Source: ANME-2 cluster archaeon (GTDB lineage Archaea; Halobacteriota; Methanosarcinia; Methanosarcinales; Methanogasteraceae). From it: 18,489 nucleotides of DNA. A program made the translations under genes and the position numbers. The notes below the pieces were generated by a model. The model was given only the letters and a program-made list of their open reading frames with translations, was not told the DNA's origin and did not search any database. The stretch covers positions 1 through 18,489 of the forward strand of contig PIXW01000105.1 in NCBI GenBank assembly GCA_003601535.1. The letters are read 5' to 3'. Below are positions 4,222 through 10,805 of the stretch, piece by piece. Every line of letters begins with the position of its first letter. Position 1 is the first letter of the stretch.

Positions 4222-5988
4222 TCATGACATTCTCTTCGCTACAATGATTAATACAAGAATTGTGAGAATGGTAAAGAGCGATTCAAACCCTGGTGTTGAT
4301 TGTGACGATGGATGTGACCCATGATAGACCACCAGAAACGCATTGCTTGGAATCATATAGTCACCGTCGTCCTCGATCCTGACCATGTTATCCTGTGCTA
4401 TCAGATGCTCTCTCACATCGCGTTCATCGATTGCGAGATCGCGGTAGGGGTTGCCAGTATACACACCATCATATCTTTTTTTATTGAATAACAATGCGTT
4501 TTCACCTTTATCCCCTGAAGCGACGACCGTTGTAAGGATCGCTCTCTTTACATTATCAGGATGGATTTCTCCCTCGAAAACCAGTTTGGTGGTCGCTTCT
4601 TCTGGTGTTATATTACCTTTTTTGTCGGCATAGATGATATCACACCCCTCTTTGATCCAGTACTCGATTTCACCGCCATCCGGATCATTATAAACGACCA
4701 GGAGCCCGATCCCATCCATGCTGAACTTCTTGAAATCGCTGGCTGCATTCTCGACGACTGCTGTGTACGTTCCACCTGACCCGACCTGATCGGTCACATC
4801 ATAGCAGTATGTTCCGGCTGGATAATCATAAGGAGGTCTCCCTTTGCGATCTGTAAACGTTTGATCGGGGTTTATCTCTTCTCCAGCAAATGAGACTCGC
4901 ATATCCGGATACGTACCATTGGCTTCGATATAACTCCATGTCCAGTACGCATACAACCGTGCGAACTCGACTGTTGCCTGTTCAGGCAGTTCGATGTCAA
5001 AATCAACGGTGTATGTGGCGTTCGGGTGCAACCTGCCAGAGTACTTGCTGTCTCCGATGGTGTACACAAGATCCCCTGTGAGGGTTCCATGTCTGTATGT
5101 GGTAAGCGGATTGTCTGCTGTGTAACTATCTCCATCATGCCCGTTCTGGTATTCCATGATCAGTACCGCACCAACAGGTTGCAGATATCCGTCTATTCCC
5201 CGATCGAAGGTTATATTGTTGGATGATTGTCTATAATCTGTAACATTCCAGCAATCAAGATCAAAGCATAGATCCCTCCACTTGTGCACTCCGTTCTCCA
5301 TGCGTCCACCGTCTGCAGCATCCTCTGCAATCAGATGATTGTTGAATGTTAGCGTGTCGTTCACACCTTCATTTCCGGATAGGTACATCGTCCAGAGTGT
5401 AGCGGATTTAACCTCGTCTGTGATCGTCCCGTCAAAACGGATGGTCTCATCATCATGTCCGGTCCGATAATTCAGATTGATATTCCCCTCGCAGATCCAG
5501 AATTCCTTATCGGTTTCAGATGGATCGTTGTATACTGCAACGAGTGACGTGCCTTTGACCCTGCCATCGATCTCGCCGCCTGTGGTGATGGTTACAGCAT
5601 TGCTGTTGGCGATATGGTTTGTTACATCATAATATATCCAGTATTCACCATTTCCTGAGCAGTAGACATTCGGATTGGTATCGTTGATTCCTTCAAGAGA
5701 GATTGTTCCGAGATCGTGCTCATTGAATACTACTGTAACCCAGCCAGTCGCTTCCTTTGTTCCGCCTTTTACCCCCACATACAGACGCGCAAACGTAACA
5801 CCGTCAGGAACGTTCTCAAACACCTCGCTGTAGGGTGAGGTGCCCACACCATGTCCGCCATTGACATAGACGCCTCCGGCGATCACATCATGTTTGATTG
5901 CGTTCAGGTTGAACCCATCAGAGGAATACTGTGCAGATGCAACTGGTATTAGGAATAATACTAATATCACTATTATTATATGTTTCAT
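4222..5988 (-). CDS. Exported two-repeat DUF3344 surface protein with PGF-CTERM-like C-terminal sorting signal
   Basis: 588 residues from the ATG at 5988. The track of in-frame starts also allows a GTG at 6000, but GGTGA (6001-5997) sits 8 nt before the ATG and favours it. A signal peptide (MKHIIIVILVLFLIPVASA, cleavage about residue 19) is followed by two related beta-rich DUF3344-like units. The first opens with AGGVYVNGGHGVG and contains FARLYVGV, LVAVYNDPSETDKEFWICEG, ATLWTMYLSGNEG and GAVLIMEYQNG. The second repeats FARLYAYW, LLVVYNDPDGGEIEYWIKEG, AILTTVVASGDKG and AFLVVYHGS. The end, TPGFESLFTILTILVLII plus AKRMS, fits a PGF-CTERM signal, so archaeosortase processing and lipid anchoring are likely. 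It follows the S-component gene by about 70 bp and has its own TATA box. DUF3344 has no established function; ligand capture for the adjacent ECF importer is my inference. Confidence 0.85.
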   Translation of the reverse strand: MKHIIIVILVLFLIPVASAQYSSDGFNLNAIKHDVIAGGVYVNGGHGVGTSPYSEVFENVPDGVTFARLYVGVKGGTKEATGWVTVVFNEHDLGTISLEGINDTNPNVYCSGNGEYWIYYDVTNHIANSNAVTITTGGEIDGRVKGTSLVAVYNDPSETDKEFWICEGNINLNYRTGHDDETIRFDGTITDEVKSATLWTMYLSGNEGVNDTLTFNNHLIAEDAADGGRMENGVHKWRDLCFDLDCWNVTDYRQSSNNITFDRGIDGYLQPVGAVLIMEYQNGHDGDSYTADNPLTTYRHGTLTGDLVYTIGDSKYSGRLHPNATYTVDFDIELPEQATVEFARLYAYWTWSYIEANGTYPDMRVSFAGEEINPDQTFTDRKGRPPYDYPAGTYCYDVTDQVGSGGTYTAVVENAASDFKKFSMDGIGLLVVYNDPDGGEIEYWIKEGCDIIYADKKGNITPEEATTKLVFEGEIHPDNVKRAILTTVVASGDKGENALLFNKKRYDGVYTGNPYRDLAIDERDVREHLIAQDNMVRIEDDGDYMIPSNAFLVVYHGSHPSSQSTPGFESLFTILTILVLIIVAKRMS

Positions 5989-6043
5989 GTCATCATTCAC
6001 CGATGTGTATTATTGTTGATGCAAAAGACACGTAAACACCACC

Positions 6044-6050
6044 ATATAAA
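6044..6050 (-). promoter_or_regulatory. TATA box for the two-repeat DUF3344 gene
   Basis: Minus-strand TTTATAT between the S-component stop (6058) and the DUF3344 ATG (5988). Initiation about 25-27 bases downstream would give a leader of about 33 nt that includes the GGTGA ribosome binding site. This suggests the surface protein can be made at a different level from the ecfT transcript. Position and sequence fit an archaeal promoter; no further evidence is visible. Confidence 0.5.
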
Positions 6051-6057
6051 CATTTCT

Positions 6058-7149
6058 TCACATCACCGCACTCCTCATCTTCCGAGCGGCATCATACCCG
6101 ATCGAACCTCCGATGATGCCACCGAGGGCAGCAACCCCTACCTGAAGCCATGAGTACCATTCTGCATAGCAGATCTTCCATGCAGCAGGCGCGAAGAGGA
6201 AGTAGAATATCCAGTACGAAATAAACCCCCGCGACATGCCATAGATCATGCATGCAATCCGCGTATCTGCATAATTCATCCTGAAGAGCACAACCTCAGC
6301 ATCCACAACCGCACCCTCGATCAGATACCATCCGACCCAGACCGTGATATTCGAACCCCAGACCACCATACAGACGATCTGGTCAACAAGAAACAAGAGC
6401 GTGGCTGTGCCAGGTTTTCTTACGAGATGTAAAGCAACGACCATCAGCGCTGATACAGGTATGGTGAACAATAATCCGCCAAAGGGCCCTAACAGGTCAT
6501 TAAACGTCTGCCAGAACCACCTGAACACAACACCAGCGAGCGCTGCAAGCAGTGCTATTGTGACGAGATCGATTGTTGTGTACATCTCAAGAATTCCGAA
6601 CCGTCTGACTGCTAAAATCACTATGGCAAGCAGCAATAAACTGATTATGATGGTGCCATAAGTGATCCATGACGGCGGTGGAATGATTGTTATGTGGTGT
6701 GTGTATTCGGTCATGCTGCCGTCTGATGTCGCAGTTATGTGAAACGATGCTTCGGTCTTCATTGGAATCGAGTCAGGAGGCTTTACTCGAATCCGCACAC
6801 TAACAGAGTCTCCGCTTTGTATCTCTCCAGGATTGGCTGTTATAGTATTACCATACTGCGTGATCCGGTCACTCATTTCCTGCGTTGGTACCGATACTGA
6901 CAGTAAATCAGGAACCGTGATGTTTGCGGTCACGCCTGTAGTTTGTGCGCCATGATTTTCAAAGACGATACGTGCACCTTCGATAGAGCCGCCAGCAACC
7001 AGCTTATCGGATGCAAACACCCCTTCCTTTCGATCGGGTATGATAACCTTGATATCGATATCTGTGCCATCGCTATTGTTGGACGCATACGCCACAGAAG
7101 ACGATAATAATGTCAGTATCATGGCAAAAATTATTAATTTGTAATTCAT
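6058..7149 (-). CDS. Putative ECF transporter S-component (YkoE-like) with exported N-terminal beta-rich domain
   Basis: 363 residues. A signal peptide (about 1-22) is followed by an extracytoplasmic, beta-rich, Ig/CARDB-like stretch (about 30-155). A transmembrane helix (about 161-182) comes next, then a hydrophobic domain of about five or six helices (193-355). This domain contains LLGPFGGLLFTIP (219-231) and LVRKPGTA (242-249), with spacing resembling Bacillus YkoE, the S-component of a predicted hydroxymethylpyrimidine/thiamin-precursor ECF importer. The resemblance is by eye and moderate. In an ECF importer the S-component binds substrate in the membrane. An attached exported domain is not part of the usual S-component. 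The ATG overlaps the stop of the upstream DUF3344 gene (ATGA), so it is coupled to ecfT and DUF3344. An alternative is an unrelated membrane protein of the DUF3344 locus. Confidence 0.7.
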   Translation of the reverse strand: MNYKLIIFAMILTLLSSSVAYASNNSDGTDIDIKVIIPDRKEGVFASDKLVAGGSIEGARIVFENHGAQTTGVTANITVPDLLSVSVPTQEMSDRITQYGNTITANPGEIQSGDSVSVRIRVKPPDSIPMKTEASFHITATSDGSMTEYTHHITIIPPPSWITYGTIIISLLLLAIVILAVRRFGILEMYTTIDLVTIALLAALAGVVFRWFWQTFNDLLGPFGGLLFTIPVSALMVVALHLVRKPGTATLLFLVDQIVCMVVWGSNITVWVGWYLIEGAVVDAEVVLFRMNYADTRIACMIYGMSRGFISYWIFYFLFAPAAWKICYAEWYSWLQVGVAALGGIIGGSIGYDAARKMRSAVM

Positions 7150-8123
7150 ATCTTCTTCTGCCCTCGTTTCTTCAGATACATCAGGGAAAATGCAATGATC
7201 AAAATTATAATCACGGCGATTACCGGAACCGGGATACCAGATCGAACAGAAGATTGTTTCGGATAGGTCCTCAATTTCGTATCACCAGTGACACTGCTGC
7301 CATGTTCAACCACCAGAATTGCATTGAATGGATGAAGGTACTGTTCATCACCTCTTTTGAAGATAACCGTGTTGTTACTCTCGATGAGACCGTCGGTCAC
7401 ATCAAAATGATCAAAATCAAGGTATCCTCCGGTTTTTTCTCTTCCTATGTCGGTTCCAAGAAGTCTTGAGTTGAACCATAATTCATCAACCTCCCCTGGC
7501 GTACCTGCGATCATCACAGTCCACAGATCTGCTTTTTCAACCGTATTCAGATCCACATCTCCTGGAAACAAGGCTTCCCCCTCGGTTCTAACAGTGCCAC
7601 CGGCAATCGCCTTGCTGAGCGCATCGTTTCCCTCATCGATCCAGAACCGGGTATACGGCATGCTGCTATTCTCATAGACTGCAACAAGAAATATTGCATA
7701 AGGGGCGCCGTTGTTGTTCTCATAACTGGCTGAGATCAGATTGAGCCCTTTTTTGAATGCAATGTCTGTGACATTATATACGTAGCAGGAAACCCCCCAT
7801 GCAGCAAGATAATCTGGTTCTTCCCGTGTTTTGAGTTGGTAATCATTGATTGAGACGGTCAGCGTATCTCCTTTATTATAATTCCACATCGGCACATAAA
7901 GGCGGGCATAAATTATATTATCAGGGAGATCAAAGTACTCGGTGTATGGATTCACGTAGGTTACCCCGTGCCCTCCGTCCACATACACGCCGCCATGCAG
8001 GCTGCCTGATGCTATCGTATACAATGGAGTGCCGCTGCCCTGCCATTCGCCAGCCATGGCAGTTGATGAAAAAATTACAATGGCGAAGACCGGGATCGTC
8101 AGCCATCTGCGAAGAACAATCAT
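7146..8123 (-). CDS. Membrane-anchored single-unit DUF3344 protein
   Basis: 325 residues. The signal peptide ends near AMA-GEWQ (about residue 25). One DUF3344-like unit follows, opening with GSLHGGVYVDGGHGV and containing IIYARLYVPMW, IFLVAVYENSSMPYTRFWIDEG, ADLWTVMIAGTPGEVDELWFN and AILVVEHGSS. These blocks match, in the same order, both units of the larger DUF3344 protein at 4222-5988. The C-terminus is a hydrophobic helix (about 294-316) followed by KKRGQKKI. It lacks the PGF motif, so it is probably retained as an integral membrane anchor rather than processed by an archaeosortase. It lies between ecfT and the putative S-component with 4-nt ATGA overlaps on both sides, so all three should be made together. 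This is strong context for a role in the transporter. The function of DUF3344 itself is unknown. Confidence 0.83.
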   Translation of the reverse strand: MIVLRRWLTIPVFAIVIFSSTAMAGEWQGSGTPLYTIASGSLHGGVYVDGGHGVTYVNPYTEYFDLPDNIIYARLYVPMWNYNKGDTLTVSINDYQLKTREEPDYLAAWGVSCYVYNVTDIAFKKGLNLISASYENNNGAPYAIFLVAVYENSSMPYTRFWIDEGNDALSKAIAGGTVRTEGEALFPGDVDLNTVEKADLWTVMIAGTPGEVDELWFNSRLLGTDIGREKTGGYLDFDHFDVTDGLIESNNTVIFKRGDEQYLHPFNAILVVEHGSSVTGDTKLRTYPKQSSVRSGIPVPVIAVIIILIIAFSLMYLKKRGQKKI

Positions 8124-8992
8124 GTTCCCAGCCCCGGCACTGTTCCACCAAAACCGATGGAACTCATGTATATTCCGGATCCAACAAGCACAGCAACGTA
8201 GATCAGCATAACGTAATCACTCATACATAACCGCAGTTCATCCACAAAGGTGCGGTTCTTTGTCGCACGGAATGCACGTGCATCGGCAGCTATTGCGATC
8301 TGTCTTCCTTTGCGCAGAAGCCCAACCACCATCGGGAAGAAGATGTATCGCAGCGCCCTGATCTTTGTCCTGATGCCGCCTTTTAGCTCAAGTCCACGTG
8401 CCCGCATCGCACTTATGATGATCATACTCTCCTCGATCATCGATGGCGCAAAACCGACCGCGGATGATACCATAAATGCGATTTCGTTCGGAACTCCAAG
8501 CCAGATATCGGTGCGCGGAATTTTTACAAATCGCACCAGTCCAACAAGGAGTTCACTCGGGTGTGTGCTTGCAACGAATGCGGAAGCCGCACTTACAGTG
8601 GTCATGAACCTGAGCGACTGGATCAACCCATATACCGCGCCTTCTGCGTAGAAATGCACTCCTCCTGTGAGATATCCGATCACAGGAAACGCAGCAGGGA
8701 TGATGGTAAACGTGGGACTCTCCGGATCGCCCCAATAATAAAAGAGCGACTGCGTGAACATGAATCCAAAGACCATCGTGCCAAACACGAACAGTATTGC
8801 GCGGACCTTTGCTGCGGATGGCTTGATGATCATCCAGAACGGCAGTACAGACAGGAATGCAATGATCAGAAGGAGCGGTGTGCCGAGCAGCATGCTTATA
8901 ACCGACATTCCAAGTACCCAGATCAGTTTCACTCGCGGATCGAGCCGGTGCATGACCGTATCTTTCTGCTCATATCGGAACAATCCTCGCAT
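8120..8992 (-). CDS. ecfT: ECF transporter transmembrane protein EcfT
   Basis: This 290-residue T-component couples the ATPases to the S-component of an ECF importer. The N-terminal HRLDPRVKL (15-23) is typical. Hydrophobic helices occupy roughly 22-80, 95-140 and 255-282. The cytoplasmic coupling helices carry the Arg motifs SAMRARG (194-200) and AADARAF (235-241). The second motif reads A-R-A rather than the usual A-R-G, a small departure. The ATG at 8992 has no Shine-Dalgarno sequence, and a TATA-like element (CTTAAATAG on the minus strand, 9023-9015) sits about 27 bp upstream, so the mRNA may be leaderless. It heads the ecfT-DUF3344-S-component unit and diverges from the ATPase gene. Cobalt/nickel CbiQ is related, but no CbiM/CbiN is present, which argues against a metal importer. 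Confidence 0.92.
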   Translation of the reverse strand: MRGLFRYEQKDTVMHRLDPRVKLIWVLGMSVISMLLGTPLLLIIAFLSVLPFWMIIKPSAAKVRAILFVFGTMVFGFMFTQSLFYYWGDPESPTFTIIPAAFPVIGYLTGGVHFYAEGAVYGLIQSLRFMTTVSAASAFVASTHPSELLVGLVRFVKIPRTDIWLGVPNEIAFMVSSAVGFAPSMIEESMIIISAMRARGLELKGGIRTKIRALRYIFFPMVVGLLRKGRQIAIAADARAFRATKNRTFVDELRLCMSDYVMLIYVAVLVGSGIYMSSIGFGGTVPGLGT

Positions 8993-9065
8993 CGGATAGT
9001 TGAATTTTATGATACTATTTAAGACTTATGGAACATATCTCCCACTACAAGCGAATCACAATAAC
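8993..9065. promoter_or_regulatory. Divergent promoter region between ecfT and the ECF double ATPase
   Basis: These 73 bp separate the two start codons. CTATTTAAG (9015-9023) reads as a TATA-like box in both directions and lies about 27 bp from the ecfT ATG. A second candidate for the plus strand, ACATATC around 9033-9039, would place initiation near the ATPase ATG at 9066. Neither gene has a Shine-Dalgarno sequence, consistent with leaderless transcripts on both sides. The interval is too short for a TPP or cobalamin riboswitch. Confidence 0.45.
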
Positions 9066-10805
9066 ATGATCGATATCAGAAACCTCAGCTACACCTATCC
9101 GAATATGTCTGAGCCTGTACTCCGCGGCATCGACCTGCACATCGATGACCGCGAGTTTGTACTGATCCTCGGTCCAAGCGGCTGCGGAAAGTCCACACTC
9201 ATCCAGTGTCTGAACGGTCTGGTGCCGAAAGTCACAGGTGGAACCCTGAAAGGAGATGTAATGGTGAATGGAAGGGATGTCCGGAGTCATAAAGTACATC
9301 AAATGGCAATGGATATCGGAATCATATTTCAAAATCCGGATACACAGCTATTTGCACTTACAGTTGAAAAAGATATTGCTTTTGGTCCGGAGAATCTTGG
9401 AATGCCAAAAAAAGAGATTTTGGAACGGATGGAGCGGGCTATACACACCGTCGGCATGGATCGTATGCGAAACCATTTCATCTTCACGCTATCCGGTGGT
9501 GAGAAGCAGCGGGTTGCAATCGCGGGTACGCTTGCAATGGAACCAGGAATCATGGTTCTGGACGAGCCAACATCCGATCTCGATCCGGTCGGAACCAGCG
9601 AGGTCCTCTCTCTTATCAGGCGGTTGAATCAGGAGAAGGATATGACCATCATCCTGATCGAACATAAGATTGATGAAGTGATACATCTTGCTGATCGCGT
9701 TGTTGTTATGGATCAAGGGAAAATTATAATGGACGGTGCGCCAGACAAGATCTTTAACCATGCACACGAACGGTTGAAAAGGATCGGGATATGTCTGCCT
9801 CAATTATCAGAGATCGATCATGCGATAAAAAACGGTTCTGGAGGCTCTGATTCTGAATGTGATTCGCCTGTATATTCATCATACAGATCAATACTTGCCA
9901 GATTGCATCATCTACTCAGCGATGGACATGCCAGTTCCATACGTTTCAAAACCGCACGCACACCATCCGCCACCCGGAAACCCAAGATCATGATCAAGAA
10001 CCTGTGGCATGTATTTGATGATGGCAGAATCGGGCTTGAGGACATCAACCTTGTGATTCCAGAGCGTGATTTTGTGGCACTCATCGGACACAATGGTGCA
10101 GGAAAAACCACCCTTGTAAGCCATTTGATCGGGCTTCTGCGACCGAAGAAAGGAAACATTTTCATCGATGGCAGCGATGTATCCAGAATGACCGTAGCAG
10201 CGCTTGCCCAGAAGGTCGGGTATCTATTCCAGAACCCTGACAATCAGATTTTTACAGATAGTGTTGCCCAGGAACTGAGATTTGGTCTGAAAAACATCGG
10301 GCTCGATGATCGCACCATCAAACAGCGAGTGGATGCAGCCCTTGCAATGATGGAACTCACCAGGTTTCAAAATCGACACCCACACTCTCTCAGCCGGGGT
10401 CAGCGCCAGCGCCTTGCTGTGGCATCCATCCTCGCGATGGAACCGGATATCATCGTGCTCGACGAGCCCACTACAGGACAGGACTGGGGACATGTGAACC
10501 GGTTTCTGCATCAGATCCAGCACCTGAACGAACTTGGAAAGACGATCGTTCTCATCACCCACGATATGAACATCGTAGCAAACTATGCCAGAAGAACGGT
10601 TGTGATGGAGAATGGGAGGATCGTACTGGACGGGAATACGAGAGACGTCTTCTCAAATCCGGAAATTCTGGAAAAGACAGGAATAACACTGCCTGTTGTC
10701 ACCAAACTCTCGCACGACCTTCAAAGGGATGGGGTGGACATTCCAACGCTCCTGACTGTGCAGGAGTTGTGCTCCTGCATGTTCAGCCAACCCGTGAATT
10801 ATTAA
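9066..10805 (+). CDS. ECF transporter double ATPase (EcfA-EcfA' fusion, YkoD/CbiO-like)
   Basis: 579 residues with two ABC nucleotide-binding domains in one chain. Domain 1 has Walker A GPSGCGKST (36-44), Q-loop IFQNPDTQLF (87-96), signature LSGGE (142-146), Walker B IMVLDEP (162-168) and switch His200. Domain 2 has Walker A GHNGAGKTT (341-349), Q-loop LFQNPDNQIF (387-396), an altered signature LSRGQ (442-446), Walker B IIVLDEP (462-468) and His499. The FQNPD(T/N)Q Q-loops are typical of ECF ATPases. A variable linker joins them (about 252-305). The start MIDIRNLSYTYP at 9066 matches the family N-terminus; TTG at 9000 or ATG at 9009 would add an unlikely tail. It should power EcfT, encoded divergently next door. 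It converges on purB with 10 bp between stops. The double form fits YkoD, in line with the YkoE-like S-component. Confidence 0.95.
   Translation: MIDIRNLSYTYPNMSEPVLRGIDLHIDDREFVLILGPSGCGKSTLIQCLNGLVPKVTGGTLKGDVMVNGRDVRSHKVHQMAMDIGIIFQNPDTQLFALTVEKDIAFGPENLGMPKKEILERMERAIHTVGMDRMRNHFIFTLSGGEKQRVAIAGTLAMEPGIMVLDEPTSDLDPVGTSEVLSLIRRLNQEKDMTIILIEHKIDEVIHLADRVVVMDQGKIIMDGAPDKIFNHAHERLKRIGICLPQLSEIDHAIKNGSGGSDSECDSPVYSSYRSILARLHHLLSDGHASSIRFKTARTPSATRKPKIMIKNLWHVFDDGRIGLEDINLVIPERDFVALIGHNGAGKTTLVSHLIGLLRPKKGNIFIDGSDVSRMTVAALAQKVGYLFQNPDNQIFTDSVAQELRFGLKNIGLDDRTIKQRVDAALAMMELTRFQNRHPHSLSRGQRQRLAVASILAMEPDIIVLDEPTTGQDWGHVNRFLHQIQHLNELGKTIVLITHDMNIVANYARRTVVMENGRIVLDGNTRDVFSNPEILEKTGITLPVVTKLSHDLQRDGVDIPTLLTVQELCSCMFSQPVNY

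Follow-up and report, generated by a model that had tools for sequence, protein, structure and literature searches.

An 18,489-nucleotide contig of an ANME-2 cluster archaeon (PIXW01000105.1 of assembly GCA_003601535.1; our contig G000:C32, taken whole and called the window hereafter, from a genome of 1.67 Mb that is 78% complete) encodes an energy-coupling factor (ECF) importer together with exported proteins of the DUF3344 family. That this importer and a dedicated exported DUF3344 partner, here named DUFa, constitute a conserved unit is well supported, since DUFa was encoded beside the substrate-binding S-component in every locus compared, including one from a bacterium. We read the system as a group I ECF importer with built-in handling of its ligand outside the cell, the ligand being a metal-bearing tetrapyrrole or a nickel or cobalt chelate; for this reading as a whole we judge the case evenly balanced. 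The choice of ligand is our first choice, made with modest confidence and drawn entirely from gene neighbourhoods in relatives. The features of the locus are as follows:

4222..6000, minus strand: two-domain DUF3344 surface protein (two DUF3344 stretches; signal-peptide-like start)
6058..7149, minus strand: S-component with predicted signal peptide, immunoglobulin-like (Ig-like) domain, extra helix and YkoE-type core (PF09819; fold)
6061..6597, minus strand: YkoE-type core of the S-component, residues 185-363
6676..7068, minus strand: Ig-like domain of the S-component, residues 28-158, predicted to be exported
7146..8123, minus strand: DUFa, DUF3344 protein (PF11824; predicted structure; linkage to the S-component)
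8120..8992, minus strand: EcfT (CbiQ family), energy-coupling subunit (PF02361; PDB EcfT chains)
8993..9065, no strand: intergenic region from which EcfT and EcfA diverge, containing a conserved A/T-rich segment that resembles a promoter
9066..10805, plus strand: double EcfA ATPase (two ABC domains), divergent (TIGR04520, TIGR04521)

The importer and its DUF3344 proteins

An earlier note had described overlapping genes for EcfT, a DUF3344 protein and an S-component, a second DUF3344 protein with two repeats, and a divergent double EcfA; all five were found at the expected open reading frame (ORF) coordinates, with their families above cut-off. On the minus strand EcfT overlaps DUFa, and DUFa the S-component, by 4 nucleotides each, and the two-domain DUF3344 gene starts 57 nucleotides past the S-component gene. 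EcfT matched PF02361 (CbiQ) in Pfam with 92.1 bits (cut-off 25) and the PDB EcfT chains 4huq and 4hzu with an E value of 9e-13, and remained far under the CbiQ equivalog TIGR02454 (35.6 bits versus a cut-off of 111.8); by its sequence the protein is an EcfT and not CbiQ proper. Its Ala-Arg-Gly (residues 198-200) and Ala-Arg-Ala (238-240), which we take to be the EcfT coupling motifs, were invariant in nine aligned sequences. EcfA showed two stretches above the NCBIfam cut-offs for TIGR04520 and TIGR04521. Its ORF was listed from the TTG at 9000; because relatives align only from residues 19-23 of that frame, translation probably starts at the ATG at 9066 (MIDIRN...), and 73 nucleotides would therefore remain for a divergent promoter. 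This intergenic region (8993-9065) contained no clear palindrome, and no NikR site was recognised upstream of ecfT. A CbiQ-family EcfT, two EcfA-type ATPase domains and an S-component fold, the marks of a group I ECF system, thus occur in one locus.

The S-component matched PF09819 (ABC_cobalt, the family of YkoE) with 30.0 bits (cut-off 25.2), over residues 194-302 only, and this match was kept in 19 of 19 scanned relatives; the Methanosarcina-type S-component of locus L130 gave no Pfam hit at E 0.001. In structure comparison the best fold match was 5edl, the thiamin-binding S-component YkoE, so the expectation that 6058-7149 would adopt an S-component fold was borne out. The label "YkoE-like" given to it previously describes the core (residues 185-363) and misses the rest, namely an N-terminal helix, an Ig-like domain (28-158) and an extra helix (161-184). 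We read the N-terminal helix as a signal peptide and the Ig-like domain as exported. In genome G009 the S-component gene (L043:7545-9152) reads on as a frame of 535 amino acids whose similarity is lost after residue 321 of the window protein; this altered end is a frameshift or rearrangement.

DUFa matched DUF3344 (PF11824) in Pfam with 132.6 bits (cut-off 27.2). Sequence and model gave an N-terminal helix, which we read as a signal peptide; behind it come two domains of beta-sandwich type (about 35-153 and 156-277), whose matches include sugar-binding modules, and then a C-terminal helix (299-323) with a basic tail. His52 and His264 were invariant in 19 aligned sequences. The protein encoded at 4222-6000 carried two DUF3344 stretches (373 bits against the same cut-off), a signal-peptide-like start and a C-terminal TPGFE-hydrophobic-basic tail, which, judging by eye, we take to be PGF-CTERM-like; among NCBIfam models this tail matched only Heimdall-CTERM, under its cut-off. 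Sister genomes encode its two domains as two adjacent genes in reversed order (e.g. L037:7251-9355), and a fused copy in the order of the window was found at L073:4740-6809, in an ORF running off its contig. DUF3344 was also found in very long open frames, both in the window's family and in the phylum draw.

Conservation of DUFa with the S-component

The loci compared comprise 38 of the 39 genomes of the order in which the S-component was matched (G345 was left out) plus loci L074-L077, 42 in all; neighbour counts in this set are lower bounds, since only about 4 kb was available for L121 and L126 and several contigs are short. In 42/42 loci DUFa and the S-component were encoded side by side on one strand, at a distance of 0-433 nucleotides. 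Different families share the order of the two genes, and so does one bacterium, a Firmicutes (locus L077) whose proteins are 39-40% identical to DUFa and the S-component of the window. Within the stretches examined, EcfT was seen in 30 of the 42 loci and EcfA in 28. Given the 42/42 linkage of DUF3344 with this S-component, the lack of recurrent association that the earlier note named as a refutation did not come about. Among the 12 loci without EcfT, L040, L054, L067, L143, L121 and L126 end or are cut near the S-component; the others are L080, L131, L132, L133, L139 and L142, of which L139 has only 2.9 kb downstream. EcfT and EcfA of genome G136 lie on a separate contig (L081).

The window's family, which we take to be ANME-2c after one near relative (L065, ANME-2c-GOS), carried both DUF3344 and CbiQ in 17/17 genomes. 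Identity to sister genomes was 82-84% for EcfT (8 relatives), 75-80% for the S-component (7) and 66-74% for DUFa (10), and the ratio of nonsynonymous to synonymous substitution rates (dN/dS) was 0.065-0.227 across the 18 pairs computed. The order divergent EcfA, EcfT, DUFa, S-component was repeated in sister loci including L037, L038, L039, L041, L049 and L051; L043 and L045 retain EcfT, DUFa and the S-component without EcfA. Pairwise distances correlated in Mantel tests on 22 loci selected because each contains the three proteins (r 0.97 for S-component and DUFa, 0.92 for S-component and EcfT, 0.92 for DUFa and EcfT; 0 of 5000 permutations as high), a correlation partly due to shared descent alone.

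By named genomes, 21 loci with the S-component came from ANME-2, Methanosarcinales, Methanosarcinaceae, Methanoregulaceae, Methanospirillum, Euryarchaeota and HGW-Firmicutes-8. The S-component was matched in 39 of the 185 genomes of the order with a wider profile (A6), and in 2 of the 196 genomes of the phylum draw with a narrower one (A1). DUF3344 was carried by at least 43 of these 196, many in clusters of MacB type and some near CobN, so the broader idea of DUF3344 as an ECF family as such had to be dropped. DUFa is most naturally read as an exported protein that partners an ECF importer. As regards the trait of group I ECF systems that they have no exported substrate-binding component, we observed that DUFa always stands beside the S-component and that the latter carries an Ig-like domain; substrate binding by these parts is putative.

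The double EcfA, EcfT and the YkoE-type S-component form an ordinary ECF engine, as homology and predicted fold show; an Ig-like domain, presumably exported, has been added to this S-component. DUFa, probably membrane-anchored and with two predicted beta-sandwich domains, would sit beside the S-component on the outer face; the overlapping genes, the 42/42 linkage and the co-divergence lead us to infer contact between the two. We propose that DUFa, together with the other DUF3344 proteins of the surface, might collect the ligand from the S-layer or across it and pass it to the S-component, which would topple into EcfT for ATP-driven release. A ligand of the F430, corrinoid or heme type, or a nickel or cobalt chelate, might then be processed by chelatases of the CobN or ChlI/ChlD type.

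DUF3344 proteins could instead be S-layer or matrix proteins (adhesins) that fix the complex in place or set its spacing without ever contacting the ligand, which we consider possible but doubtful. DUF3344 overlaps a predicted cluster of fibrillar adhesins, with ambiguous function (PMC9210967), and the sugar-binding modules among the beta-sandwich matches, the very long DUF3344 frames and the SLH domains on the copy in L077 agree with such a role. DUFa, however, represents a single-domain form of its own, which accompanies the S-component throughout the set, and this holds in L077, a bacterium with a different envelope. The SLH-bearing copy (L077:3824-5353, from a Firmicutes metagenome-assembled genome) combines DUF3344 with three SLH domains, a surface protein fitted to a bacterial wall.

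Neighbouring genes and the candidate ligand

In the 42 loci we found NikR beside six, all in family f3, CobN beside four (L137, L140, L141 and L077) and ChlI/ChlD-type genes beside three, while neither CobN nor NikR occurs in the window itself. (We take f3 to be ANME-2a/b and genus g10 to be Methanosarcina; both labels are inferred.) The six NikR genes were identified by PF08753 and by NCBIfam models of nickel regulators. In L146, NikR has the MacB module on one side and another pair of DUF3344 genes on the other, and genome G198 has one NikR about 2 kb away from a CobN that is itself 6 kb from DUF3344. In L077, MotA/ExbB and DUF2149 genes lie upstream of the core, which also has CobN, a ChlI-type gene and a putative subunit of a cobaltochelatase (TIGR02442) around it, and the set as a whole is reminiscent of heme salvage; MotA/ExbB and DUF2149 here are presumably like hmu genes.

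Among the matches listed, 11 of 22 CobN in 16 genomes of the phylum lay within 15 kb of DUF3344, against 0.83 expected under uniform placement (0 of 200,000 simulations as high), and 1 of 22 within 2 kb (P 0.24). These 16 genomes are those with DUF3344 clusters retrieved, G136 with its S-component among them; they are related and so not independent. CobN matches broken into pieces were joined for G080, G001:C1, G009:C212 and G007:C102, and a match below cut-off (G014:C63:25963-26103) was left out. In the 17 ANME-2c genomes, 5 of 75 CobN matches lay near DUF3344, in four genomes and all within 2 kb (0.88 expected at 2 kb, P 0.002; 3.35 expected at 15 kb, P 0.24). The genome of the window has three CobN matches, all outside the window.

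The metallo-tetrapyrrole or chelate is preferred because of the NikR, CobN and ChlI/ChlD neighbours, the gene set of L077, the closeness of CobN to DUF3344 in the 16 genomes, the MacB-type modules and FecCD permeases at other DUF3344 clusters (see below) and published responses of CobN and NikR. In a hydrogenotrophic methanogen, CobN1 and NikR1 were high only under nickel limitation (PMC12350162), and in Methanosarcina barkeri two CobN-like BtuS proteins change with the iron and sulfur source (PMC10846266). Several points weigh against our reading. Besides the share of common descent in the co-divergence, the link between CobN and DUF3344 is weak in ANME-2c, since five cases were seen against the 3.35 expected at 15 kb; NikR was present in 33 of 33 scanned genomes; and in ANME-2c it was never on the contig bearing the ECF locus.

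A NikR-controlled uptake system for nickel or cobalt as free ions, with DUF3344 as an exported metal trap like NikK and NikL of NikKMLQO, would also fit the NikR genes beside six loci and the two invariant histidines of DUFa, yet we hold it to be unlikely. It has precedents in the NikK/NikL components of nickel ECF systems (PMC2667541) and in a Methanoperedens plasmid on which DUF3344, NikR and EcfT/EcfA occur together (PMC9674854). Nevertheless, none of the eight scanned window proteins had a Pfam or NCBIfam hit to CbiM/NikM or CbiN, and in the stretches examined the remaining 36 loci had no NikR beside them. At its N-terminus the S-component carries an Ig-like domain in place of the metal-binding motif that NikM and CbiM possess there. 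The previous statement that a metal route is unlikely without CbiM and CbiN goes too far, given the NikR, CobN and ChlI/ChlD-type neighbours in relatives, although the CbiM/NikM family was not hit.

A further alternative, quite improbable in our view, keeps the same importer and DUFa partner with an organic vitamin or precursor (hydroxymethylpyrimidine (HMP)- or thiamin-like) as ligand, as in YkoEDC, CobN and NikR being incidental. The PF09819 match above cut-off and the thiamin-binding best fold match favour it. YkoE holds thiamin by Trp49, Glu77, Gln95, Asp131 and Tyr46 (PMC5037267). Among 19 relatives of the S-component, Trp49 corresponds to Phe (17), Tyr (1) or Ser (1), and is thus aromatic in 18, in a part where the alignment is loose; Gln95 corresponds to Glu (18) or Pro (1). 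Glu77, in contrast, is replaced by Ala (11), Cys (7) or Ser (1) and Asp131 by Trp (15), Gly (3) or Ala (1), both non-acidic in 19/19, and Tyr46 aligns with a gap. The set Trp49/Glu77/Gln95/Asp131 was thus absent from these relatives and, since its residues are replaced, a YkoE-type thiamin site is unlikely to exist in the S-component. Nine other archaeal PF09819 proteins likewise lacked the thiamin residues as a set, so this argues against a YkoE-type thiamin site and not against every organic ligand. Rfam found two tRNAs only and no thiamin pyrophosphate (TPP) riboswitch in the window, and no thiamin gene was present among the scanned neighbour proteins; the earlier hint at a thiamin precursor is not supported by these results.

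Relatives also carry an enlarged locus. In the 42 loci a MacB_PCD/FtsX-type permease (24) and a LolD-like ATPase (14) were found beside DUF3344 genes; neither was seen in the examined stretches of the 11 ANME-2c loci, L074-L076 and L077. In f3 and Methanosarcina-like genomes the enlarged locus contains a DUF3344 protein of about 590 amino acids (with CARDB domains in L130), another of about 340-360, the ATPase and the permease, and it is complete in the single-contig genome G322 (5,751,492 bases). That DUF3344, LolD and MacB form a module exporting or placing DUF3344 proteins, with the ECF genes serving secretion or assembly, is very improbable, for all the frequency of permease and ATPase next to DUF3344 genes, as the loci lacking both still have ECF and DUFa, and known ECF transporters are importers.

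Twenty stretches with DUF3344 clusters from other families of the phylum (L080-L099) contained MacB-type permeases (14), LolD-like ATPases (14), CobN (5), ChlI/ChlD-type (4) and BtuC-type genes (6). Pfam confirmed MacB-type permeases in L085, L086 and L099 and FecCD in L092-L095. The clusters L085, L086, L092-L095 and L099 have MacB modules (not found in L094), and several also have CobN, ChlI/ChlD-type or FecCD-type genes. By Pfam, a DUF2117 gene adjoins the MacB permease in L130 (5708-6883) and L137 (6017-7210), and frames with similar N-termini occur in L131-L136, L138 and L139; to our knowledge this archaeal family has no assigned function. In the window, an archaeal reductase of the riboflavin pathway (TIGR01508, 3332-4009) lies on the same strand 212 nucleotides downstream of the DUF3344 gene, with no match in sister loci L037-L056.

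Relation to known systems

Compared with YkoEDC (group I ECF, thiamin/HMP; YkoE 5edl), the window system adds the Ig-like domain and helix of the S-component and a constant DUF3344 partner, and the thiamin-site residues Glu77 and Asp131 are replaced. With NikKMLQO and CbiMNQO it shares an ECF engine with components beyond A, T and S (PMC2667541) and, at some loci, NikR nearby, but its S-component belongs to the YkoE family. The existence of such nickel systems corrects the statement, made previously, that ECF importers by definition use no separate binding protein.

A 2022 account of a Methanoperedens plasmid described DUF3344 surface proteins near NikR and EcfT/EcfA, as here, and called the transporter a possible biotin transporter; in the part available it neither ties DUF3344 to the transporter nor names an S-component (PMC9674854). 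No sequence match to this plasmid was found. DUF3344 next to NikR and EcfT/EcfA is thus already known in print, while the fixed pair of DUFa and S-component, the Ig-like domain on the S-component and the linkage of DUF3344 with CobN were not met in the parts of the papers searched.

The Hmu heme-salvage system of Bacteroidota, with the CobN-type dechelatase HmuS (PMC12583661), resembles some relatives in having a CobN-type chelatase by uptake genes and L077 in its MotA/ExbB and DUF2149 neighbours; it differs in that an ECF importer and DUF3344 replace the HmuR receptor and HmuY here, and the window has no CobN. A CobN-type gene, which HmuS/BtuS-type salvage would have linked to its uptake genes, stood beside 4 of the 42 loci. 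Transporters of the MacB/LolCDE type are represented by the permease beside DUF3344 described above, which was not seen in the ANME-2c loci.

More broadly, we tentatively suggest, as a doubtful possibility, that DUF3344 defines surface-to-cytoplasm scavenging in methane-cycling archaea, in which F430, corrinoids and heme from lysed neighbours would be captured on or under the S-layer, imported by an ECF system bearing a fused Ig ectodomain, joined in many lineages by a module of MacB type, and stripped of metal by CobN/ChlI-ChlD-type chelatases. If true, archaea would possess an equivalent of the Hmu heme-salvage operon of bacteria, and its ECF importer would be one that always needs a receptor partner outside the cell. 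How archaea use HmuS/CobN/ChlH homologues was called unclear in 2025 (PMC12583661), and DUF3344-linked clusters offer a concrete candidate setting for them. ECF importers have been taken to bind substrate in the S-component alone; an Ig domain and a fixed exported partner raise the question of how S-layered archaea get scarce nutrients through their wall.

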